Assembly (NCBI GenBank): GCA_016900015.1
Contig: JACJJM010000003.1
Location: 124,001 to 188,000, forward strand
Length of the DNA stretch: 64,000 nt
DNA from: Phocaeicola coprophilus
GTDB lineage: Bacteria > Bacteroidota > Bacteroidia > Bacteroidales > Bacteroidaceae
Reading direction: 5' to 3'
Below are positions 14,231 through 36,545 of the stretch, piece by piece; the first letter of the stretch is position 1; each line of letters starts with the position of its first letter. The position numbers and the translations under genes are program-made. Below the pieces are notes generated by a model, which was not told where the DNA came from, searched no databases, and saw only the letters and a list, made by a program, of their open reading frames with translations.

Positions 14231-15253
14231 ATGAAACTGCCGACTCTACTCCCCTTCATGTGTGCCTGCCTGCTGCTCGCAGGATGCGCCCACCGGACAT
14301 CGTCCCCGGCAGCGGAACTTGCGACCGACAGTATCCGCACGGACACGACTCCGACACGTCCCGCACCCAAGCCGTTGCTCAAGGGTACGGACATCGTGAT
14401 AGAAAAAGACTTACTCTATGACAAGTACACCCTGAAGGACACCTACCCGCAGAAAGACACGGCATGGAGTTTCAAATGGACACTCATCGAAGAGTGGCTG
14501 GCAGAGGTGGAAAACATGCAACGCGACTCCACTTGCCGGTGGGTCGTGATGCAAAACTACAAGAACCGCAACCGGGAAGCTCCCGTCGTGAGGAACTATC
14601 ATCGAAATGACTACGGCCGTGTCTCTGACAGCCTGAACATCGAGCGATACCAGTCCGCACCGCTCTATCTCCTCACCGACACGGCCGTGCCTGAACGCTA
14701 CGGACGCGACGGCACGCTGGCCTACGGGGAGGGAGAAGAGGGTAGCTTCATGCGGATACGCCTCACAGGCTCTGGAGAAAAATGGCTCGTCCCCAAACGC
14801 TACTTGAAAGAGTTGCCCGACAGCACGCGGTTCCACCATGTCGTCATCGTCGACCGAGGCAGCCAGCACATCGCCACTCTGGAACGCCAGGCGAAAGGCC
14901 ATTGGCTGGTGCGCAGCATGAACCCGTGCACCACCGGACGACGCCGGCCACCCTACGCACAACCCACACCGCTGGGCATGTTCCTGCTTCAGGAAAAGAA
15001 GCGGCGCATGGTCTACCTGAAAGACGGTTCGGCGGAACATGGAGGATTCGCACCCTACGCTTGCCGCTTCACCAACGGAGCCTATCTGCATGGTGTCCCC
15101 GTGAACGCACCCCACACCCAAGAAATCGAATACAGCTACTCACTGGGCACGACCCCACGTTCACACATGTGTGTACGTGTCGCAACTTCTCATGGAAAGT
15201 TCATCTACGAATGGGCGCCGGTGCTCCAGTCACTCATCATCGTCGTCGAATGA
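14231..15253 (+). CDS. L,D-transpeptidase (YkuD-like) lipoprotein
   Basis: A 340-residue putative peptidoglycan-modifying lipoprotein. The frame opens at 14108, but ATG 14231 starts a lipoprotein signal with lipobox LLAGC. The C-terminal 130 residues resemble the YkuD catalytic domain: an ITVDR-like strand (VVIVDRGSQH), TPLGMFLL, the LHG histidine, and the Cys in SHMCVRV. The usual SHGC has Met in place of Gly, while Cys and Arg are kept. The family forms 3-3 cross-links or anchors lipoproteins to peptidoglycan. A second, differently built L,D-transpeptidase gene follows 87 bp downstream. Confidence 0.75.
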   Translation: MKLPTLLPFMCACLLLAGCAHRTSSPAAELATDSIRTDTTPTRPAPKPLLKGTDIVIEKDLLYDKYTLKDTYPQKDTAWSFKWTLIEEWLAEVENMQRDSTCRWVVMQNYKNRNREAPVVRNYHRNDYGRVSDSLNIERYQSAPLYLLTDTAVPERYGRDGTLAYGEGEEGSFMRIRLTGSGEKWLVPKRYLKELPDSTRFHHVVIVDRGSQHIATLERQAKGHWLVRSMNPCTTGRRRPPYAQPTPLGMFLLQEKKRRMVYLKDGSAEHGGFAPYACRFTNGAYLHGVPVNAPHTQEIEYSYSLGTTPRSHMCVRVATSHGKFIYEWAPVLQSLIIVVE

Positions 15254-15307
15254 CGCGGGAGGCTCATATTTAACATCTTACCTTCTGCCTAATCGGGAAA
15301 TATGGAT

Positions 15308-15315
15308 TATCTTTG
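15308..15315 (+). promoter_or_regulatory. -7 box of the second L,D-transpeptidase gene
   Basis: TATCTTTG lies 25 bp before ATG 15341, which suggests this gene can be transcribed separately from its upstream neighbour. Confidence 0.5.
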
Positions 15316-15340
15316 CGGAAATTTTCAGCCTAAGACATCC

Positions 15341-16060
15341 ATGCAGAGACTTCTATATTCCTTACTATTGTCAGTGCTTATCATACCCGGACTGTGCCTG
15401 CTGACAGGAAGCAGCACCGGCGAACCAGCTGTCACATCAACGCAGCCGGAAAATCCCGCGCCGACAACAGCCTACGAACAACTCTATGACACCCTCCAGC
15501 TCGACAGCCTTGTCAGCCGGGAAGCATTCCGCCAAGCAGTGGAGGGATTTTACAAAATCGAAAGCCGGAAACGGGACGTGCTCACGCTTATCGACTTTTC
15601 CAAACCATCCACCGAAAAGCGCCTGTTCGTCATCGACATGCAGAAGAGGAAATTGCTGTTCTCCTCCGTCGTGTCACACGGCAAAAACAGCGGGGAAAAC
15701 TACGCGACATCCTTTTCCAACGAAAACGGTTCGCACAAGAGTTCACTGGGCTTTTATCTCACGGGCAACACCTATCAGGGGCGAAACGGCTATTCCCTCA
15801 TCCTCGACGGACTGGAAAAAGGCATCAACGACCGCGCCCGCGAACGAGCCATCGTGATGCACGGGGCAGCTTATTCCAATCCGTCGGTCATCCGCTCATG
15901 CGGCCGTCTGGGACGCAGCTTCGGTTGTCCGGCAGTCCCTCAGGCACTCTCCCGCCCCATCATCGACGCCATCAAGGGAGGCAGCGTCATCTATATTTAT
16001 GCTCCCAAGCCGGAGTATCTCGTCCGAAGCACCATCCTGTCACCCGAGCCCCATGCATAG
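15341..16060 (+). CDS. murein L,D-transpeptidase catalytic-domain protein (YkuD_2 type)
   Basis: A 239-residue exported protein. The frame opens at 15302, but ATG 15341 begins a signal peptide (MQRLLYSLLLSVLII...) and the stretch before it contains the -7 box, so 15341 is the start. The YkuD_2-type domain shows the expected HG (VMHGAAYS, about residue 172) and the nucleophilic Cys in GRSFGCPAV (about residue 196). Family members are thought to act on peptidoglycan in the periplasm. It overlaps the start of the DUF3810 gene by 8 bp, so the two are translationally coupled. Confidence 0.8.
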   Translation: MQRLLYSLLLSVLIIPGLCLLTGSSTGEPAVTSTQPENPAPTTAYEQLYDTLQLDSLVSREAFRQAVEGFYKIESRKRDVLTLIDFSKPSTEKRLFVIDMQKRKLLFSSVVSHGKNSGENYATSFSNENGSHKSSLGFYLTGNTYQGRNGYSLILDGLEKGINDRARERAIVMHGAAYSNPSVIRSCGRLGRSFGCPAVPQALSRPIIDAIKGGSVIYIYAPKPEYLVRSTILSPEPHA

Positions 16061-17090
16061 AAGACGTTTATGCCGGCTCCTGCGCTGGAGCATGCTGGCT
16101 CTGCTGCTGGCTTTCATCTTCGTGTGCCAGCTCTGCCCGCAGGCCGGAGAATGGTATGCACGGCACATCTATCCCCACACCGCATCCATCCTCTCACGCA
16201 CGGCTTCGCTCGTGCCGTTTTCTCTGGAAGAAACAGTCGCACTGGTCATCGGGATATGCCTGCTGGGCTACCCCATCCTCGCCCGCAGAGGTGGCCAAGG
16301 ATGGAAACGCATCCTGCGAAGAGAAGCAGAAATCATCCTCTGGGTATATGCCTGGTTCTATTGGGGATGGGGGTTGAACTATTTCCGGGAGTCGTTCTAT
16401 GTCCGCGCCGGAGTGAAGCCGGCTGCATACGAGGAAGCGAAGTTCCGTTCCTTCCTGCACTCGTACACCGACAGCCTGAACACCAACTACTGCGACGTGG
16501 CATCCATCGACACGCTGGCCGTGCAGCAAGACATCCGGACGCTCTACGCGACAGTGCCTGCCGGATATGGGCTGGACGCACCGGAATCCTATCACTGCCC
16601 GAAAGACCTATGGTTCAACACGCTTTATTCCCATGTTGGCGTCTTGGGATATGCCGGCCCGTTCTTTGTCGAAATGCAACTGAACGAAGAATTGTTGCCT
16701 TCCCAACATCCATTTACTTATGCCCACGAACTGGCTCACCTGCTGGGCGTCAGCAGCGAAGCGGAAGCCAACTATTGGGCCTATCGCATCTGTACGCAGT
16801 CCGGCCGTCCGGAAGTGCGGTACAGCGGCTACATGGGGTTGCTGTCTTACGTCATCATCAATGCCCGCGCCGTGATGGAACCTGAGACCTATCGGGAGTG
16901 GACACTCACCCTGCGCGATGAAGTCGTGCGGGAATTAGGAAACAGGGACACTTACTGGAGCGAAAAATACAGCCACGCATTGGGAAGCATCCAAGACTGG
17001 GTCTATGACCTCTTCCTCAAAGGAAACCAAATCACGTCCGGGAAAAAGAACTACGCCGAAGTCATCCAGATGATACTCTCCACCCACTAA
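16053..17090 (+). CDS. DUF3810 membrane-anchored putative zinc metalloprotein
   Basis: A 345-residue protein starting at ATG 16053 inside the end of the L,D-transpeptidase gene. Two hydrophobic segments near the N-terminus (about 12-32 and 52-75) and a third near 95-110 anchor it in the membrane. The DUF3810 domain carries an HELAH zinc-binding motif (TYAHELAHLLG, about residue 230) followed by a downstream Glu in SSEAEANYWAY, like gluzincin peptidases. No substrate is known. Coupling to an L,D-transpeptidase suggests an envelope or peptidoglycan role. Its last codon overlaps the convergent MATE gene by 4 bp. Confidence 0.82.
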   Translation: MHRRRLCRLLRWSMLALLLAFIFVCQLCPQAGEWYARHIYPHTASILSRTASLVPFSLEETVALVIGICLLGYPILARRGGQGWKRILRREAEIILWVYAWFYWGWGLNYFRESFYVRAGVKPAAYEEAKFRSFLHSYTDSLNTNYCDVASIDTLAVQQDIRTLYATVPAGYGLDAPESYHCPKDLWFNTLYSHVGVLGYAGPFFVEMQLNEELLPSQHPFTYAHELAHLLGVSSEAEANYWAYRICTQSGRPEVRYSGYMGLLSYVIINARAVMEPETYREWTLTLRDEVVRELGNRDTYWSEKYSHALGSIQDWVYDLFLKGNQITSGKKNYAEVIQMILSTH

Positions 17091-18448
17091 GCCGGCGCGT
17101 GCATCTTTTTCAATATACGGGGAAACTGGATGGCAAAGATGGTCGTGCAGCAGATGGCAGCCAAAGCGTCGGAAATGCCTTCCGCGGCGAAGACACCCAT
17201 CAGCCCGATGAACTTGGGAAGAATGATGGCCAGCGGCACCAGCAAGATCACCTTCCGCAGGAGCGCGATGAAGACCGACACGCGGGCCTGCCCCAAGGCG
17301 ACAAACATGTTCTGACAAGCACGTTGCAGTCCGAAGATGGTCATGCCGCCGAGGAACACGGGCATCACCCGTTCCACGGTCTGAATCAGCACGTCATCAC
17401 TCGTGAAAGCCGAGGCCACGAGATGGGGAAAGAGAATCATCAAGACTATCAACAGGAAATTGAACGAAAACATCACCGTCAGCGCCACCTTGAAGCAGGA
17501 CTTCACACGTTCGCGGTCGCCATGCCCGTAATTGTAGCTCACGATGGGAATAAATCCTTGGGCAAACCCGGTCAGTGGCACACTCACCAACATCATGGCG
17601 CTCTGCATGATGGCCAGGGCACTTACGTAGATGTCGCCGAAGTGTTTCAGCCCCGTGTTGAGCACAAAGCCCACGAGACTCTCCGTGCTGGCCATGATGA
17701 AAGGAGACACGCCCAATGCAAGGATGCTCAGGACAATGCGCTTGTCCAGCTTCATGTAGCGACGCTCCAGACGGAGGGACGCCCGCTTGGACGTAAGAAA
17801 TGACAAAACCCATGCGGCACTGCATGCCTGCGAGATGATAGTGGCCAATGCCGCCCCTTTCACGCCCATGCCAAAAGTGAAAATGAAGAGCGGGTCGAGC
17901 ACGATGTTGAGGAATGCCCCGATGAGCACGGACTTCATGGCGATGGCAGGACGCCCCTGCGTATTGATGAACGTATTGAGCCCGACCGACACTTCCACAA
18001 ACAGCGTCCCGAGCAGATAGATGGACAGATAGTCGACGGCGTAGCCTATGGTGTGTTCCGAAGCCCCCGTGAAAAGCAGGACGGGCCGCATGAAGATATA
18101 TGCCGTCACGGACGTGAGCAATGTGAACATCAGCAGAAGAGTAAAGCCATTGCCCAGGATTTTCCCGGCACGCACACGGTCACCCTGCCCCAACGCGATG
18201 GCGGCCAGCGGCGCACCCCCTCCTCCCACGATGGCAGAGAAAGCCGAAATCAAGATGATGACAGAACTGGTCACGCCTATGCCTGCCAGCGCGTCAGTGC
18301 CTATGACCGGGATATGGCCGATGTAGATGCGGTCGACGAGATTGTACAACAGATTGACGATTTGTGCTGCCACGGCCGGAAGCGCCATTCGAAACACCAG
18401 CGGCAACATACGGTCCGTCCCCAGACGTTCCTCATAAACATTGCTCAT
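17087..18448 (-). CDS. MATE-family efflux transporter
   Basis: A 453-residue multidrug and toxic compound extrusion transporter with about twelve hydrophobic helices. Typical signatures are FRMALPAVAAQIVNLLYNLVDRIYIGHI at the start (helix 1), GVTSSVIILISAFS and the later PLTGFAQGFIPIVSYNYGHGD, the second-half copy of the repeat. MATE proteins export cationic drugs or metabolites by sodium or proton antiport. The substrate is not predictable. It is convergent with, and overlaps by 4 bp, DUF3810, with no terminator between. Confidence 0.9.
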   Translation of the reverse strand: MSNVYEERLGTDRMLPLVFRMALPAVAAQIVNLLYNLVDRIYIGHIPVIGTDALAGIGVTSSVIILISAFSAIVGGGGAPLAAIALGQGDRVRAGKILGNGFTLLLMFTLLTSVTAYIFMRPVLLFTGASEHTIGYAVDYLSIYLLGTLFVEVSVGLNTFINTQGRPAIAMKSVLIGAFLNIVLDPLFIFTFGMGVKGAALATIISQACSAAWVLSFLTSKRASLRLERRYMKLDKRIVLSILALGVSPFIMASTESLVGFVLNTGLKHFGDIYVSALAIMQSAMMLVSVPLTGFAQGFIPIVSYNYGHGDRERVKSCFKVALTVMFSFNFLLIVLMILFPHLVASAFTSDDVLIQTVERVMPVFLGGMTIFGLQRACQNMFVALGQARVSVFIALLRKVILLVPLAIILPKFIGLMGVFAAEGISDALAAICCTTIFAIQFPRILKKMHAPA

Positions 18449-29261: not shown

Positions 29262-31862
29262 TCATTTCTCAATTTCATACACTTTCCAATTACCATCTCC
29301 GGTATAGACTGCTTTCGCATTCACATAACAATTGGAAGTAATGTTATATTTTTCCAGTATAGTTTTATGGACATAGTAATCACCAATAAATGCAAAATCT
29401 GGTTCTTCTCCATCATACCTATCTTTATATTTGAGTTCCAAATTACCGGAGAAGCGTTTTACTAAGTCACTATTACTCCCGTCAGTCAACTCTGCCCTAA
29501 GCACTTCCACTAATTTCTTTTGCTTACCCGGATTCTTCTTGTCACTGATTTCCTTGACAAAATAATGAATCTTAATGCAATCACCAACGGATGGACGCAA
29601 ATCCGTCTGATCATAGTGCAGAATACCCGAAGCCTGTTTGGTACCTAATACAAAATGGAATAGTTTACGCTGATTATTGACATCATCTACTGCTGCAATC
29701 CTACACTTGAACTTCTCAATAGCTTCATCCTCAGCACACTTTTGTATGTTACATAAGAAAGTCTTGCTCTCTTCCTTGACTTTCTTTTTGTATTGGCGCA
29801 GTTTGACAAAATCTCCTTTTTCAAGTTCCTTCCGCTCATAGTGCTCATAAACGAGTGTTGAATCGGTCAAATAAATATGATAGACCTTTTTCTCTGTGTT
29901 TATATACTGAACATAGCCATATTGAATCGGCAAATTAAACCAATCTGCCGTTTCTGAGGGAATGGCAGTCAAAGGAATATATTTGATTACTGCTTCTTTC
30001 TTGGGCTGCTGCCATGGATAATCACCGGGAATGGTTCGGATTGTTTCGTCTTTATACAATTTGAATTTCCAAACTTGTCCTTTATGACTATCGTTTAGCC
30101 CTGGAAATCTCTTCTTATCGGTAGCAAATTCAATTGCTTTACCGTCGACAAAAACTATCATGGTCTTTCCGTTCCCGTTTTTCCATTTGTCCACAAGTAC
30201 AACTTCCGTGAAAGAAATATCTTCGTAAGCGTATTCTTCCGCTCTTGAGATATTTTCGGCATAAAGTGCCGCATTATTGTCAGATGCAGGAGTAACCGAG
30301 GAGCATTGCTCAAGAAGAGCATCCACTTCTGAATCAATACGCCAGCCCTTTTCAGCATAGTGTTTCTTATATTGGTCAAGTTCAACTACTGCATTTGCAT
30401 ATTTCTTGGATTTAATTAGTTGTTGAGCCAATTCCATTCGTATCTTCCCTATGAAGTCTTCATTCTTCTCTAAGCTTAGAGCTTTGCAAAGAAAAGCAAT
30501 CTTTACATCCACATCTTCCCAACAATCGGCAAATTCACTCCAGATGTAGTATTTCTCTCCCATCTTCTGGCAAAGCTTTTTATAGATATCCTTTGCTTCT
30601 GCTTGCTGACCAGCGCGCAGATGAAGTAACGCTTTCGACCTGATATTCCAATCATCATCCGGTATCTTCTCTATGGCTATTCCATAGAGGTCAATAAGCC
30701 ATTGGAGGTCTCCTAGTTGTTCATCAGAAAGATTCTCAAGAGCTTCTTTTACTCTTTTCAGCGATTTGACAGCTAACGGTTTATAGGTTTCCCCATTATC
30801 TCCTTTCTCTTCTTGCCAGTCAGCTGTTCTTAGTTTCTCTGGGTTCCACCCTCTAAAAAAATCATAGAATCGCCATGCATTGTTTTCCTTCATTGTGCGC
30901 TCGGCTAACCCAAGAACTTTCGAATGAGAAGTAGAGGCCGGAGTATCATTGGATAACTCTATATATTGGTTAAACAGCTCCCATGTAGATGAAGAAACAC
31001 CGTCCTCAGTACTATGATACAGTTTCCAGAAGAAATGGTTTTTTATCATTTCGATAAAATCGTCTTTCCTATAGGGGATAAGCCTAACAAATTCTTGAAT
31101 CTCATCTAAAGGATAATCAACAATAGCCTTTGCAATTCTCGACATCAACGATGGAATGGTTTTGCCTTCGTTGCTACGTGAATCTTCAAAATCATCCAGT
31201 CGCAAATTGTTCGGATTCCATAACTTGAGAAACGATATGAGTTTGAAATTGCCATCTTGTTTAGAGTAATTAAGGGCGAAGTTCAATATTTGGGAATGCA
31301 GCATCGAAGGGCGCTCATTATGAAGGTAAATATAGTTCTTCAGTTGCTTCCGCACCTGTATTGAATCAAGTTGTGCAATGTGATCTCGCAAATAACGGTA
31401 TATTGCCCATCCATAGCTTTCATGCGCTTCTTCAGGAAGATTTCCGTCTACTGACAATTGGGTAAGAATTCCCCATGCTTTATCATTGTTGCCTTTCTGA
31501 CTCAATTCTTTAGCTTCTTGAATCTGAGCGTAGAAAGGATTCACCATTAGTCTAAGTGCTTGTATTTTTCTAACAAGCATTTCCGCAAACTCATCGAATT
31601 GGGTCTCGAAGTGCATACGCGACAGAAGAGCTGAAATTTTTCGCGCATCTACAATATTTCCTTTCTGTTGCTCCCTTTTGCAGATATCAATCAATGTCCA
31701 AGCATAGGCTTTCAGAACATCTATATCTGTTCTGTTTTTTTGAAGATAATCTTCAGCCAGTTGTCTGGCATCATCCAATAAACCATCGCGACGGAGAGCA
31801 TAGATTTTAGTTGATATGCGAGGGGAGTAATCATTCTTATTATGAGAACTAAACTTTGCCAT
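29262..31862 (-). CDS. large TPR-like protein with OB/cold-shock-like C-terminal segments
   Basis: An 866-residue cytoplasmic protein, unrecognised as a named family. Residues about 10-550 are a run of helical-pair repeats (TPR-like; for example DDARQLAEDYLQKNRTDIDVLKAYAWTL). From about 560 on, the sequence is beta-rich with several segments resembling OB/cold-shock folds, such as GYVQYINTEKKVYHIYL and the final FAFIGDYYVHKTILEKYNI...KVYEIEK, which resembles a cold-shock domain core (F-x-G-D-x-Y-V). A nucleic-acid-binding effector or adaptor is inferred. It starts 14 bp after the stop of the NERD/pseudo-helicase gene, so they form one unit, and lies at the end of the island. Confidence 0.7.
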   Translation of the reverse strand: MAKFSSHNKNDYSPRISTKIYALRRDGLLDDARQLAEDYLQKNRTDIDVLKAYAWTLIDICKREQQKGNIVDARKISALLSRMHFETQFDEFAEMLVRKIQALRLMVNPFYAQIQEAKELSQKGNNDKAWGILTQLSVDGNLPEEAHESYGWAIYRYLRDHIAQLDSIQVRKQLKNYIYLHNERPSMLHSQILNFALNYSKQDGNFKLISFLKLWNPNNLRLDDFEDSRSNEGKTIPSLMSRIAKAIVDYPLDEIQEFVRLIPYRKDDFIEMIKNHFFWKLYHSTEDGVSSSTWELFNQYIELSNDTPASTSHSKVLGLAERTMKENNAWRFYDFFRGWNPEKLRTADWQEEKGDNGETYKPLAVKSLKRVKEALENLSDEQLGDLQWLIDLYGIAIEKIPDDDWNIRSKALLHLRAGQQAEAKDIYKKLCQKMGEKYYIWSEFADCWEDVDVKIAFLCKALSLEKNEDFIGKIRMELAQQLIKSKKYANAVVELDQYKKHYAEKGWRIDSEVDALLEQCSSVTPASDNNAALYAENISRAEEYAYEDISFTEVVLVDKWKNGNGKTMIVFVDGKAIEFATDKKRFPGLNDSHKGQVWKFKLYKDETIRTIPGDYPWQQPKKEAVIKYIPLTAIPSETADWFNLPIQYGYVQYINTEKKVYHIYLTDSTLVYEHYERKELEKGDFVKLRQYKKKVKEESKTFLCNIQKCAEDEAIEKFKCRIAAVDDVNNQRKLFHFVLGTKQASGILHYDQTDLRPSVGDCIKIHYFVKEISDKKNPGKQKKLVEVLRAELTDGSNSDLVKRFSGNLELKYKDRYDGEEPDFAFIGDYYVHKTILEKYNITSNCYVNAKAVYTGDGNWKVYEIEK

Positions 31863-31876
31863 TTTTACTGTCTAAA

Positions 31877-34810
31877 TTATAGTTTTGTTGATTTAAATAC
31901 AATCATTTCCCGCACCTCACTTGCAATGGTGGTATCAGTAACGTCGAACATCTCAATTTTGTTGATAAACCCTTTGCTATGGCTTTCCAAGCTGGTTCCA
32001 TACCATAGGCGGAGCATAGCGTTGCCGTTATCAGATGTAACCTTGCAGACAATCTGATAATCTTTACTGGACACTACCTCAAGCTTGAATCCCCGCTCTT
32101 TCATCTGCTCACCAAATACCTTAACGACTTCCAAAATATAATCAGGAGTATCCACAGATTTATTATATGACACAGCCTGGGAGAAGACTGTGTCGATGCA
32201 CTGCTCAATACAGGTGGCATCAACTAACTCATTCGGCTCCATTCTAATTGCCGAGATACCATAAGAATCCTTAGCACCCTTGTTATGAATATCAATTACC
32301 AATTTCTTTTTTATCCCTTGTGGTACTGAAAATACGGCCTTGGTCAAATAATCATTGCACGGTTTGACCACCTCCAAGATATAACCGCTTGGTTCGATAA
32401 GCTTTGCCAATTCACAAATAGCAGCTGACGCATTGACGTTATTAAGAACCATATCGGAAAAACGGGATGGCACTTTATACCCATCATATATAAGCAATTG
32501 CTTCGGTGGGTTAACACCTGAATCTGTTTCGCTCACGGTACAATTCATAAATGGATGGACATATTGCGGTTGTGCAATATAGAATACTCCTGCCGTAACA
32601 CAGAGCCCACTGTATAGCCATCTGAAATAAGACTCATTGCATATTCCGTCATTCTCCGTGCGGAATCCTTTCAAGATGACATTGTCAAATTCGGAGCCGA
32701 CAGCCTTATGAACAGTTATAGCCCATGCATATTTCGCATACATTACATTGATAAGCGGATCGTTCTCACGGGAAGACCGTTGAATGTCACTCTCGTACCT
32801 ATCATAATAACATTTGAGTAATGAACGGGCCACTTTCGTTGTTTTGACCGGTACCCTATCTTCTTTCTGGACAGAACGGTTTTGAATAATGTTTTCTATC
32901 GCTTCTTTCTCATCATTAGAGAGGGCTTGATAGTCCGCATCAGATAGTAACTGACTATAAAATTCAGTCTTGGCAAATGGTGACGACTTCTTTCGTTCAG
33001 TAATACGACGATTAATGAAGACATTAACTGCAATCTGTTCCTCCTTAGTCAATTCATCTGAACAATCCAAATAATTGTCAAGTACCCAAATTTCGGCATC
33101 CTGCCCACTTAGGCTCAAACATTTAACAGATATTTTTGTAAAAGACAGAAACATTGGACGAGGATAAGCCTTAATGGAGATTGTTTCACTATGCTTCTCA
33201 AGCACATCCTTTACAGTAAAATACATCCCGTTCAGCACTCTTTTGGGATTACCAAACCCGGTCTCATCAGGGATATAGATATTATTATTGGCAATAAGAA
33301 GGTCGCCTGCTGCAAGTTCCTTCCCATTATTCAAACAATGATGCTTAACCCAAAGATTGGTTTTCAGACAGTCGCTTTTCTTGAAAAACAGGACCGACAG
33401 CTTAGGTTCTTGCTGCAATGGAGCCATAAACCATTCTTTCATTTTGTCGGTAATCGCATCTTTCCTGATCTCAACGATAGACCCGTCATCAAAGGCATAA
33501 TTCAAGTTGTTGAACAGCTGTGCATCCATACTCTTGGCGAGACTACATTTTAGAGACTCCTTGCAGGACTCATGTGAATCGCAGGCCGGCTGATGATAGT
33601 AATGAATAACCCTATCCTCGCAGATAGTTTGAAGATTAGCCACATTGATAGCAGAATCGTCGGAAGAGCCGAAAGATAGCATATAAGGGTCACCGATGAA
33701 AACGATTTTCCGCTCAGATGCCGGATTGGCAAAGGCGATGAAGTCCTCAAGCAAACGCCCTGTTCCAAAGCGAAGCAAATCTGATTGAGAGAGGCTGCGG
33801 CTTACAAGATGCGCATCATACACCATTAACAATGCTCGCTCATCCAATCCGGCATCCGAACGGATGGGAATAACCTGCATGGCCTCATCGTCTTCTTCAT
33901 CTTCGGATGTCTCGTTCCCTCCGTATATGAATGAGTAAAGGCTGGAAGCCTCTATCCCGCGCTGTCCCAACCGGCGGCTAATTCTATTTGAATGACAAAG
34001 TCCTTGAATTTCAGGAATTCTGTAATTATCTGCAATAGAAAAAATGTATTTTGCCCAATTATCCCGTTCTTCTGCATCCATCGACGTTAAGACAAGAAGG
34101 TCGTTGCCCTCTGTTTGCATAAAGGTATCGATAGTAGATTTTGCCCCTTTCCCGACAATGATGTCTTGCTTGCAAATCACCCCCGTATCAAATGAATAGT
34201 CTTGAATATATTCATCGGATGGGAAGATGCTTTTAATCGCCTTGGCTATCTCTTCATCGAAAGCATTATCATTATTCAAATCATAAAGCAAGGCCCCTAT
34301 CTCCGATTCTTGTACAATCTTATAATAAGGATATTTCCCCGGAACCTTATTGCTGAGCTTAAGCGGTCCTGAAAAGATATTTGCTATGCACACCCGGGAT
34401 GGATTGATTTTTTGCCCGAGAATTGGATTATGCTCAACGATTTCTCTGAATGCGTTTCTATATGAAACAAGCTGGAGAAACGGATTCAAGAAATGGGCAC
34501 CTGCCTTAACCTCTATATTCTGGCAGTCCGATACTTTTTCTGCATACCAAGGATAACTCTTAAATTCATCATCGCCCCGTGGAATAATCAGTTGACCCGA
34601 ATAGTCTTTGAAGTCAATAATTATCACTCCATGATTGAAAAAGAGAATCGCATCTGCACGAAAGCGCCGATATTTCTCATTAAATGGATTACCAATAAGA
34701 ATGCCATCGTAATTGTGCTTTTTGAACGCGGCATCTACTATCTTGACCACGCGGCGGAATTGCTCATTCTCGTGCGTTGCTGCCTGCTGATGTAAAACCT
34801 CTAACGCCAT
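31877..34810 (-). CDS. NERD-like nuclease fused to a degenerate superfamily 1 helicase
   Basis: A 977-residue protein. Residues 1-72 resemble a NERD-type PD-(D/E)xK nuclease domain, with Asp53 in RADAIL and Asp66-x-Lys68 in IIDFKDYSG, so the nuclease core looks intact. The centre has the fold order of an SF1 helicase but every catalytic motif is altered: the P-loop position reads LTSMDAEERDNW (238-252, no GKT), Walker B reads LLMVYDAH (327-334), motif III GDPYMLSFG lacks the Gln, motif V reads TVHKAVGSEFD (Val for Gln), motif VI LYSGLCVTAG lacks the TR/Arg finger. The C-terminal 230 residues contain two YILEVVK repeats. It probably does not hydrolyse ATP by the usual route. A TPR partner follows at 14 bp. 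Confidence 0.75.
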   Translation of the reverse strand: MALEVLHQQAATHENEQFRRVVKIVDAAFKKHNYDGILIGNPFNEKYRRFRADAILFFNHGVIIIDFKDYSGQLIIPRGDDEFKSYPWYAEKVSDCQNIEVKAGAHFLNPFLQLVSYRNAFREIVEHNPILGQKINPSRVCIANIFSGPLKLSNKVPGKYPYYKIVQESEIGALLYDLNNDNAFDEEIAKAIKSIFPSDEYIQDYSFDTGVICKQDIIVGKGAKSTIDTFMQTEGNDLLVLTSMDAEERDNWAKYIFSIADNYRIPEIQGLCHSNRISRRLGQRGIEASSLYSFIYGGNETSEDEEDDEAMQVIPIRSDAGLDERALLMVYDAHLVSRSLSQSDLLRFGTGRLLEDFIAFANPASERKIVFIGDPYMLSFGSSDDSAINVANLQTICEDRVIHYYHQPACDSHESCKESLKCSLAKSMDAQLFNNLNYAFDDGSIVEIRKDAITDKMKEWFMAPLQQEPKLSVLFFKKSDCLKTNLWVKHHCLNNGKELAAGDLLIANNNIYIPDETGFGNPKRVLNGMYFTVKDVLEKHSETISIKAYPRPMFLSFTKISVKCLSLSGQDAEIWVLDNYLDCSDELTKEEQIAVNVFINRRITERKKSSPFAKTEFYSQLLSDADYQALSNDEKEAIENIIQNRSVQKEDRVPVKTTKVARSLLKCYYDRYESDIQRSSRENDPLINVMYAKYAWAITVHKAVGSEFDNVILKGFRTENDGICNESYFRWLYSGLCVTAGVFYIAQPQYVHPFMNCTVSETDSGVNPPKQLLIYDGYKVPSRFSDMVLNNVNASAAICELAKLIEPSGYILEVVKPCNDYLTKAVFSVPQGIKKKLVIDIHNKGAKDSYGISAIRMEPNELVDATCIEQCIDTVFSQAVSYNKSVDTPDYILEVVKVFGEQMKERGFKLEVVSSKDYQIVCKVTSDNGNAMLRLWYGTSLESHSKGFINKIEMFDVTDTTIASEVREMIVFKSTKL

Positions 34811-34938: not shown

Positions 34939-35952
34939 TCAACGATTATTTTTCCATTCCAATGCCCTGAATCTGTCCTGCAACTCATGCAACTGCTCCA
35001 TAATCTCATCAAACGAGGGCGCATTAGCATAAATAAAGCCGATTTGCATCTGCTTATAGTCGTCCCGCAAAGCCTCTTCAATGCTTTCAGGAGGAAGAAA
35101 TGATATTGTATGCGGAAGATGTGTTGTGTAATCCAGTCCGCTCCATGCCGTAAACTTATTGCGATGAGCCACAATGTCTTCATAGAGTTGTACATTTTGC
35201 ATTGCTTCCATTGCAAACGGTTTATCCATCATCTTTACAATGTCATACATGTGTCGTGTGATACGTTCGATATGCGTACAGCCATTGGGACGGTTAAACT
35301 CTTCATGCAAAAGAAAAACCTTTTCCAAGAATGTCCGTCCTGGCACTACTGTGGGGACTGCAAATATCGGCAATGAAAAATCTTCATCCGGATAGGCATC
35401 TTCTATCATAGAACGCATTTCTATCTGTTCCGACGGTTCCATGAGAGAACGACAACTTATCTCAACTTTGACTCGCTCCGGTATATATTGCATTTTCGTT
35501 TGCAGCACTGAATTATACTCGACAAACAGGACTACAGGGTCAAGGTCGCTGACAGACGTCTCCGGAACTATGACTTTACAACACTCTGAAAGATCATACT
35601 CTTTTAATCTGTTCTCTACGTCAAGCGCAAAAGTGCCATCTATGAACTTCTTGGAGTCTTTCCGCAACTTAGTCCGTTGACTTTTAGTCTCAATATTTGT
35701 GAAACCGAGATATTGGGGATCTATTGCAAGGTCAATATCTTCCGAAAACCGTTCTATTAATCCCCAACCTTTGCTAAGGCTTGTTCCTCCCTTGAAAACA
35801 AAAGCTGCTGCATACGGCAAAGAAAATATGGCACGTAACACCATACTGACCCAGTAGTCCTTTTCTACGGCATTGTCCACAATCCCTTTCTCTTCGGCTA
35901 CATTAGCCAAAATGGTAAGTTGTTCTTCTTTTGTAAGCTTAGTAAAATTCAT
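34939..35952 (-). CDS. abiEii: AbiEii-type nucleotidyltransferase toxin
   Basis: A 337-residue toxin of the type IV AbiE system, a nucleotidyltransferase-fold protein (COG2253). The signature block KGGTSLSKGWGLIERFSEDIDLAI (about residues 56-79) contains the catalytic GGTSLSK and DxD residues. Such toxins modify tRNA 3' ends or otherwise stop growth during phage infection. It overlaps the antitoxin stop by 4 bp (ATGA), so translation is coupled. A 128-bp gap separates it from the NERD/pseudo-helicase gene. Confidence 0.88.
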   Translation of the reverse strand: MNFTKLTKEEQLTILANVAEEKGIVDNAVEKDYWVSMVLRAIFSLPYAAAFVFKGGTSLSKGWGLIERFSEDIDLAIDPQYLGFTNIETKSQRTKLRKDSKKFIDGTFALDVENRLKEYDLSECCKVIVPETSVSDLDPVVLFVEYNSVLQTKMQYIPERVKVEISCRSLMEPSEQIEMRSMIEDAYPDEDFSLPIFAVPTVVPGRTFLEKVFLLHEEFNRPNGCTHIERITRHMYDIVKMMDKPFAMEAMQNVQLYEDIVAHRNKFTAWSGLDYTTHLPHTISFLPPESIEEALRDDYKQMQIGFIYANAPSFDEIMEQLHELQDRFRALEWKNNR

Positions 35953-36545
35953 AATGCAAGTCTTTGTTTAATCCATTGCGGGGCAATGCTGTAATCGTAT
36001 TTGATTTCATCAGGACTACCATATTTTTCAATGGTTTGTTTTATGATTGCAACCTGTTCATCTGTCACGTTATCTTTCCCTAATTCTTTCATGGCAGCGA
36101 CTATAAGTGGGAACAAGTCTGTCTTGTAGGCAAAATTGCGAGGTACGCTACGCTTGAATATGATTTTACGGTTCCCGATAGTAAGTTCCCTTGCTGTGGC
36201 ATCTGTCAGATAGACTGCATTCATCGTGACCTGTGTGGAAAGTCCCAATTTGTTCAATGCTGTCAATCCACTAGGTATAATACGAGCCTTATCCTTTTCC
36301 GCTATAGCGTATGCGATATCTTCTATAGAGGGACGAAGTACACCGAACTTATTCCGTAATGGATATAGATATAGACCTTGAGAAAGACGAATGAGCACAC
36401 CCTCTTTTTCTAATCGGGAAAGCGCACGAGTAACTAGCCCATCATTATTCAGATGGGCAAAATCACTCACCATATAAAGCCTGTTCGGTCCGTTTCGGTC
36501 TATGATGTTTCGTATTTCCTTCGTCAGTATCGTCTTCATATCCAC
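35949..36545 (-). CDS. abiEi: AbiEi-like antitoxin (DUF6088 type)
   Basis: A 198-residue antitoxin partner of AbiEii. The N-terminal 70 residues form a winged-helix DNA-binding domain (LVTRALSRLEKEGVLIRLSQGLYLYP), which in the family represses its own operon. The remainder (LNKLGLSTQVTMNAVYLTDATARELTIGNRKIIFKR) matches the AbiEi/DUF6088 core. The antitoxin gene comes first, as usual. A good promoter lies directly upstream at 36560-36590. Confidence 0.85.
   Translation of the reverse strand: MDMKTILTKEIRNIIDRNGPNRLYMVSDFAHLNNDGLVTRALSRLEKEGVLIRLSQGLYLYPLRNKFGVLRPSIEDIAYAIAEKDKARIIPSGLTALNKLGLSTQVTMNAVYLTDATARELTIGNRKIIFKRSVPRNFAYKTDLFPLIVAAMKELGKDNVTDEQVAIIKQTIEKYGSPDEIKYDYSIAPQWIKQRLAL

Follow-up and report, generated by a model that had tools for sequence, protein, structure and literature searches.

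The window, which is the whole stretch of 64,000 nucleotides of Phocaeicola coprophilus DNA analysed here, contains on its minus strand an island of four genes, comprising two large adjacent genes (here called A and B) and an AbiE toxin-antitoxin pair (Table 1). Gene A is an uninterrupted reading frame of 977 codons (31877-34810, minus) that matches the PADLOC model PDC-M16A (E 4.5e-61), and gene B matches PDC-M16B (E 9e-101) as well as the Pfam families TPR_14 (E 1.9e-5, above the cut-off), S1CSD-TOTE-1 (E 5.1e-17), and S1CSD-TOTE-2 (E 3.4e-5, below its cut-off). The two-gene locus looks like an anti-phage system. The G+C content is 0.36-0.44 across the island stretch versus 0.43-0.56 in the flanking 1-kb windows, a difference that fits a foreign insert and does not prove one. 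Six regions from the same genus all contain ddh, five of the six contain ruvA, and none contains A, B, AbiE, or htpG; since some of these contigs end nearby, a clean empty site could not be shown. A search of the window for tRNA genes found none.

Table 1. Features of the A-B locus and its neighbours (positions in the window; residue numbers refer to protein A)
Feature	Position	Strand	Remark
Gene A: NERD nuclease, SF1B pseudo-helicase, C-terminal TBP-like element; 977 aa (PADLOC PDC-M16A)	31877..34810	-	
NERD (PD-(D/E)xK) nuclease region, about aa 1-180	34271..34810	-	
NERD catalytic core, D53 ... D66-F-K68	34607..34654	-	kept in 28/28 covering rows
Dead RecA-like domain 1, about aa 214-417	33560..34171	-	structural match to Dda/RecD2/Pif1; alignment with intact relatives
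Former Walker A, aa 241-252, now L-x-S-M-x4-R-D-x-W	34055..34090	-	alignment A2
Former Walker B, aa 329-334: first Asp gone, acid 332 retained	33809..33826	-	
Former motif III, aa 373-381, GDPY(S/M)L: Gln gone	33668..33694	-	position 377: S20/M9
Former motif V, aa 696-708: Gln gone; T699 and K702 retained in 26/26	32687..32725	-	position 704: I13/V9/L4
Former motif VI, aa 728-741: Arg gone	32588..32629	-	position 738: A11/T10/V3/S2; Arg in 0/26 rows
C-terminal domain, about aa 770-970: two alpha-beta4-alpha repeats, TBP-like element	31901..32503	-	AF2 pLDDT 83.8
Gene B: TPR, DUF7017, S1/CSD (OB); 866 aa (PADLOC PDC-M16B)	29262..31862	-	14 bp downstream of A
AbiEii nucleotidyltransferase toxin; neighbour, probably outside the module	34939..35952	-	upstream of A
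AbiEi/DUF6088 antitoxin; neighbour, probably outside the module	35949..36545	-	

Pfam places NERD at residues 33-127 of protein A and UvrD_C_2 at residues 694-735, each slightly below its curated cut-off when the protein is scanned singly; across the family alignment, at E<=0.1, NERD matches 28 of the 29 members and UvrD_C_2 24 of the 29. Neither A nor B matches a Pfam ATPase family, and none of the four proteins of the island (A, B, AbiEii, and AbiEi) matches a Pfam SF2 helicase family. The AF2 model of A is of moderate quality (pLDDT 74, pTM 0.38, with residues 695-740 below 50), and in this model RecA domain 1 is predicted to share the SF1B fold of Dda, Pif1, and RecD2. A profile search of the PDB gave a single weak match, again Dda (E 7e-4), and the same search with A as a single sequence gave no useful match. 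The C-terminal domain is matched by Pfam TBP-TOTE in 8 of the 29 members of the dead family, the window protein itself not being among them, and TBP-TOTE occupies the same position in P-loop-bearing NERD relatives (L167, E 1.9e-32 over two stretches; L169, E 9.1e-10).

The state of the individual motifs was determined from an alignment (A2) of 29 rows, consisting of the window protein and 28 relatives. The nuclease residues E14, D53, D66, K68, and Q113 are unchanged in all 28 rows that cover them. At the old P-loop, S243, R249, D250, and W252 are invariant in all rows, and residue 244 is Met in 28 rows and Ile in one; the Walker Lys is thus replaced by Arg (R249) and the Thr by Asp (D250) in 29/29. 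In the former Walker B, position 331 varies (H10/Y6/A6/T4/P2/N1) and position 332 is always acidic (E22/D7). The hallmarks of an active SF1 helicase, namely the Walker A Lys-Thr/Ser, the first Walker B Asp, and the motif VI Arg, are missing from the window protein and from every covering row (29, 29, and 26 rows, respectively), and a scan of 26 dead proteins for another P-loop of the pattern [AG]x4GK[ST] found none. Invariant columns make up 35/179 of the NERD region, 32/197 of RecA domain 1, 10/119 of the RecA domain 2 region, and 6/210 of the C-terminal domain; their enrichment at the old P-loop is modest (5/15 versus 111/969, P 0.02). The alignment confirms that A joins a NERD domain of intact catalytic core to a predicted SF1B helicase fold in which a key residue is gone from every motif listed (Walker A, Walker B, III, V, and VI). 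The claim of the sequence-only reading that the SF1 motifs are changed and the nuclease core kept is therefore upheld, since the strings it named are present and the positions are altered relative to intact relatives; its expectation of a helicase-like fold also agrees with the structure prediction, in which RecA domain 1 resembles Dda, RecD2, and Pif1, with low TM-scores to Dda (0.16/0.31).

The same dead motifs occur in three full-length orthologs of A (87, 73, and 46% identity), and a more distant NERD protein (L099, 26%) retains its P-loop. Relatives were sought more widely by scanning 84,980 species, each represented by a single genome, with the NERD-end peptides THENEQF and L[IV]GNPFNE; seeded by these peptides only, the scan was blind to the helicase part and did not select for loss of the motor. 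It returned 32 loci, the three earlier orthologs among them (as L110, L113, and L115). Three loci fall outside the count, being a copy 100% identical to the window protein (L109), a protein with an SF2 helicase (L140), and a frame that ends before the helicase (L137). All 29 remaining relatives, each with a readable P-loop region (28 aligned, plus the broken L138), have S-(M/I)-x4-R-D-x-W in its place. Their sources are several families of Bacteroidota as well as contigs that bear the labels Acinetobacter lwoffii and Clostridiales, and the replacement residues persist down to 35% identity. The L099 NERD protein, used as the query against 395 genomes of the phylum at E<=1e-15, found matches in 10 genomes, one of them the window's own, and yielded three further P-loop-retaining NERD proteins (L141-L143). 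In these, GTxxSGK(S/T), DES, and a motif VI Arg persist, but motif IV is without its Arg and motif V without its Gln, so that they look intermediate. The PDC-M16B model at E<=1e-10 matches 27 of 393 genomes of the same order, including the window's own, and 15 regions around such matches were retrieved. Many matches in the homology searches were frames of ~470-510 aa that resemble a common short RecD-like helicase and not this family (few were aligned). A search for a phage home had a negative outcome: two pattern-based scans of IMG/VR gave no relative, and at E<=1e-5 a phage collection gave none either.

A maximum-likelihood tree of 46 rows, calculated with the motif columns removed, groups the 26 dead rows as a single clade (support 100/99); a single loss of the motor explains the dead NERD rows. 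The four P-loop-bearing NERD rows adjoin this clade, with weaker support for the joint branch (85/76). The branch of L147 and L166 is very long, and long branches among the rows without NERD likewise drew a warning from the tree program; given their damaged motifs and unsure placement, a second, separate motor loss is possible. L166 (3997-7771), which has the same gene pair as L147, encodes a 791-aa NERD-less relative that reads GAFSTGKR and VESH and lacks a canonical motif VI Arg. This protein carries a TBP-TOTE domain, has a partner that matches PDC-M16B, and may be a second, separate pseudo-helicase. Omega values (Nei-Gojobori, own script) were obtained for 13 pairs that overlap in their sequences and are not independent. 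In nine of these pairs omega is 0.08-0.19 for the whole of gene A and 0.05-0.21 for the dead RecA domain 1; the other four are saturated. The dead RecA domain is thus under purifying selection. In eight of these nine pairs NERD has the lower value of the two, so that constraint on the dead domain is somewhat weaker than on the nuclease; by its invariant columns, the RecA domain 2 region is looser still. The sequences show that loss of the motor goes back to the ancestor of a broad clade and has been maintained.

In the 24 of 29 relatives in which the next gene could be judged on an unbroken contig, that gene encodes a TPR-OB family protein in every case. A long B ortholog adjoins A in 18/29 relatives (split over two frames in L115 and L132, and cut by the contig end in L114), and six relatives (L123, L125, L126, L127, L133, and L136) have a short partner of 479-530 aa that matches a PADLOC TPR-OB model, with a Pfam S1 domain in four of the six; the contig ends beside A in L117, L128, L129, and L130. 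The P-loop-bearing proteins likewise have long (L169 and L099) or short (L167 and L168) partners, and in the tree both kinds accompany dead and P-loop-bearing A. A single partner family was ruled out, the short TPR-S1 HMM matching none of 15 long B proteins at E<=10.

The surroundings of 22 loci were surveyed by running PADLOC on chosen large-ORF neighbours (limits 1e-10 to 1e-15). Restriction-modification (RM) or BREX genes lie close by in 12 of the 22 (L112, L120, L121, L122, L124, L125, L126, L127, L130, L131, L133, and L136), a raw count, in a setting where defence genes cluster anyway. The other 10 (L110, L111, L113, L115, L118, L119, L123, L134, L138, and L139) have no RM or BREX gene; eight of them have no PADLOC match at all, L138 has an SNF2/DrmD-like helicase, and L134 has a PDC-M37B/DolB match. 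Two loci contain A and its TPR-S1 partner within a BREX gene order: in Haloflavibacter (L127:102-18003) the genes run BrxC, GmrSD, PglX, A, TPR-S1, PglZ, and BrxL on one strand and tightly packed, and in L136 (2-18041) they run BrxC, PglX, A, TPR-S1, PglZ, and BrxL. L126 has hsdM, hsdS, and hsdR ahead of the pair. The four genes of the window's island include no BrxC, PglX, or PglZ, and only AbiE adjoins A and B; a fixed association with AbiE was rejected, as among the 32 scan loci the AbiE pair occurs only at the window's own copy (L109) and at L138. Other genes seen at single loci include a prokaryotic Argonaute two genes upstream of the pseudo-helicase and after a type I restriction gene (L124:5416-7641), and a Drt2 reverse transcriptase and an MkoA-like gene that directly flank the A-B pair (L122:7423-8979 and 14735-18100). 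In L138 (9001-12218) A is broken, with most of the helicase gone, near an IS66 transposase and the AbiE pair.

Among known systems, AddB and RecC work in complexes that are driven by an active motor partner. They resemble A in placing a dead helicase-like scaffold, as a recognition part, beside a nuclease (PMC4824097 and PMC1185551), and they differ in that active partner, no ATPase family being matched by A or B. In Hachiman, as described in PMC12278908, a helicase-fold sensor similarly controls a nuclease effector, but HamB is an active helicase on a chain separate from the nuclease HamA. By its components the pair resembles the TOTE (TPR, OB, TBP, Effector) conflict systems (Aravind, Iyer and Burroughs 2022, as cited in PMC12458937): B has TPR and S1CSD-TOTE domains, relatives of A have TBP-TOTE, and a nuclease effector is present, so that TPR, OB (S1/CSD), TBP-like, and effector components are all found, the last from the NERD catalytic residues by sequence only. 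The difference is that the effector here is a NERD domain joined to an ATPase-dead SF1B helicase. TALON, described in PMC12458937, shares the NERD nuclease, the TPR-CSD fusion, and the TBP genes, and differs in having a YprA-family SF2 helicase where A has an SF1B fold and a dead scaffold. A 1093-aa frame with an uncultured Prevotella label (L140:8965-12243), in which NERD (E 4.4e-9) is fused to a DEAD/Helicase_C SF2 helicase and whose N-terminus also matches PDC-M16A, is nearer to TALON.

The sequence-only reading knew of no described defence system with this arrangement, a view that the analysis does not support: the pair corresponds to the PADLOC candidate PDC-M16A/B, with TOTE domains, both adjacent genes (14 bp apart) matching its models. 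PDC-M16A models also match proteins with an intact P-loop, with or without NERD, and the NERD end of L140. A literature search found no paper naming PDC-M16 and, among the papers listed, no description of NERD fused to a dead SF1B helicase. A survey of BREX components (PMC12839542) mentions NERD for PglW and DndF, and the words TPR, tetratricopeptide, and TOTE do not occur in its main text. As a kind of system, then, the pair is already known as a candidate (PDC-M16/TOTE); what is new is the conserved loss of the motor, the replacement motif, and the relatives within BREX operons or beside restriction genes.

The changed motor suggests reuse as a nucleic-acid-binding or control part. The preferred reading, to which we assign a probability of roughly 0.6, is that A and B form a TOTE-type (PDC-M16) module in which an ATP-dead pseudo-helicase binds nucleic acid or a partner and gates the NERD nuclease. 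The OB domains of B and the TBP-like and pseudo-helicase parts of A would grip the nucleic acid of an invader, or each other, without ATP turnover, and this engagement would release or position NERD to cut DNA; S-(M/I)-x4-R-D-x-W, no longer an ATP site, may serve as a switch within the structure or as a surface for docking. Since neither protein matches a working ATPase family, it is natural to suppose that the module acts without ATP. The module would act as an anti-invader nuclease, frequently alongside restriction or BREX systems. A bolder version, offered tentatively and with the odds against it, treats NERD, the ATP-free pseudo-helicase, and the TPR-OB partner as a plug-in effector with a conserved switch, which in some lineages would sit within BREX operons and beside type I restriction genes, giving these systems an extra means of cutting DNA and of sensing what escapes them.

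It is doubtful that A is instead an accessory nuclease of restriction or BREX systems, dependent on the host system for its signal and unable to stand alone: the 12 loci with such genes, the placement inside BREX order in L127 and L136, and the position after hsdM, hsdS, and hsdR in L126 agree with this idea, but the 10 loci without them and the window, where AbiE is the only neighbour, do not, and the neighbours examined are a chosen subset. A domain that binds nucleotide without hydrolysing it, as a switch or a sensor of phage-made nucleotides with R249-D250 reshaping the site, appears rather unlikely. An arginine in place of the lysine is by itself compatible with binding, R249 and D250 occupy the old Lys and Thr positions in 29/29 rows, and the second Walker B acid is also kept (E22/D7 at 332); PMC12839542 proposes sensor roles for inactive P-loop domains and nucleotide binding for that of BREX PglZ. 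Against this, the loop has lost its glycines, arginines are missing from their usual places in motifs IV and VI, and the loop is short, the predicted helix beginning at residue 246 (DSSP line of the AF2 model).

Also improbable, slightly more so, is a toxin-like effector in which A would cut host DNA when B is disturbed and so kill or arrest the cell (abortive infection). The proposal in the same source that NERD is a suicidal backup nuclease in the PglW of Type-2 BREX (PMC12839542) and the AbiE toxin-antitoxin pair beside A in the window favour such a role; however, the ORF maps (ORFs of at least 100 aa) contain no conserved small antitoxin-like gene with A, and AbiE lies near A in just one other scan locus, L138. 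That the window copy is a pseudogene-like helicase whose motifs were recently lost is very improbable, and one-off decay is rejected. The module does decay at times, as the broken relatives L138 (most of A gone, with an IS66 transposase as the next gene) and L132 (several frames) indicate, but the replacement residues common to 29/29 readable relatives, the full-length open frame, the purifying selection, and the single clade all speak against decay here. The same observations bear out the earlier proposal of a selected pseudo-helicase, whose motif loss is conserved in homologs, with close homologs dead in 29/29 and the P-loop keepers forming a separate, neighbouring clade; the sensor role controlling the nuclease that it also suggested is an inference.

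If the nuclease of this ATP-dead module does work without ATP, it would represent an unusual, motor-free form of helicase-nuclease defence. Living genomes contain a graded series, from intact helicases without NERD, through NERD-fused proteins with a P-loop and altered motifs IV and V, to NERD-fused proteins that are dead, which allows testing of how a motor turns into a sensor, and with the relatives embedded in BREX operons one can test directly if the module adds a DNA-cutting arm to BREX. A plasmid search for the wider family matched 50 records, mostly from Klebsiella and Escherichia, and one such helicase, which keeps its P-loop, lacks NERD, and is followed by a hypothetical gene, is found on a Klebsiella plasmid (L062:4555-8915).
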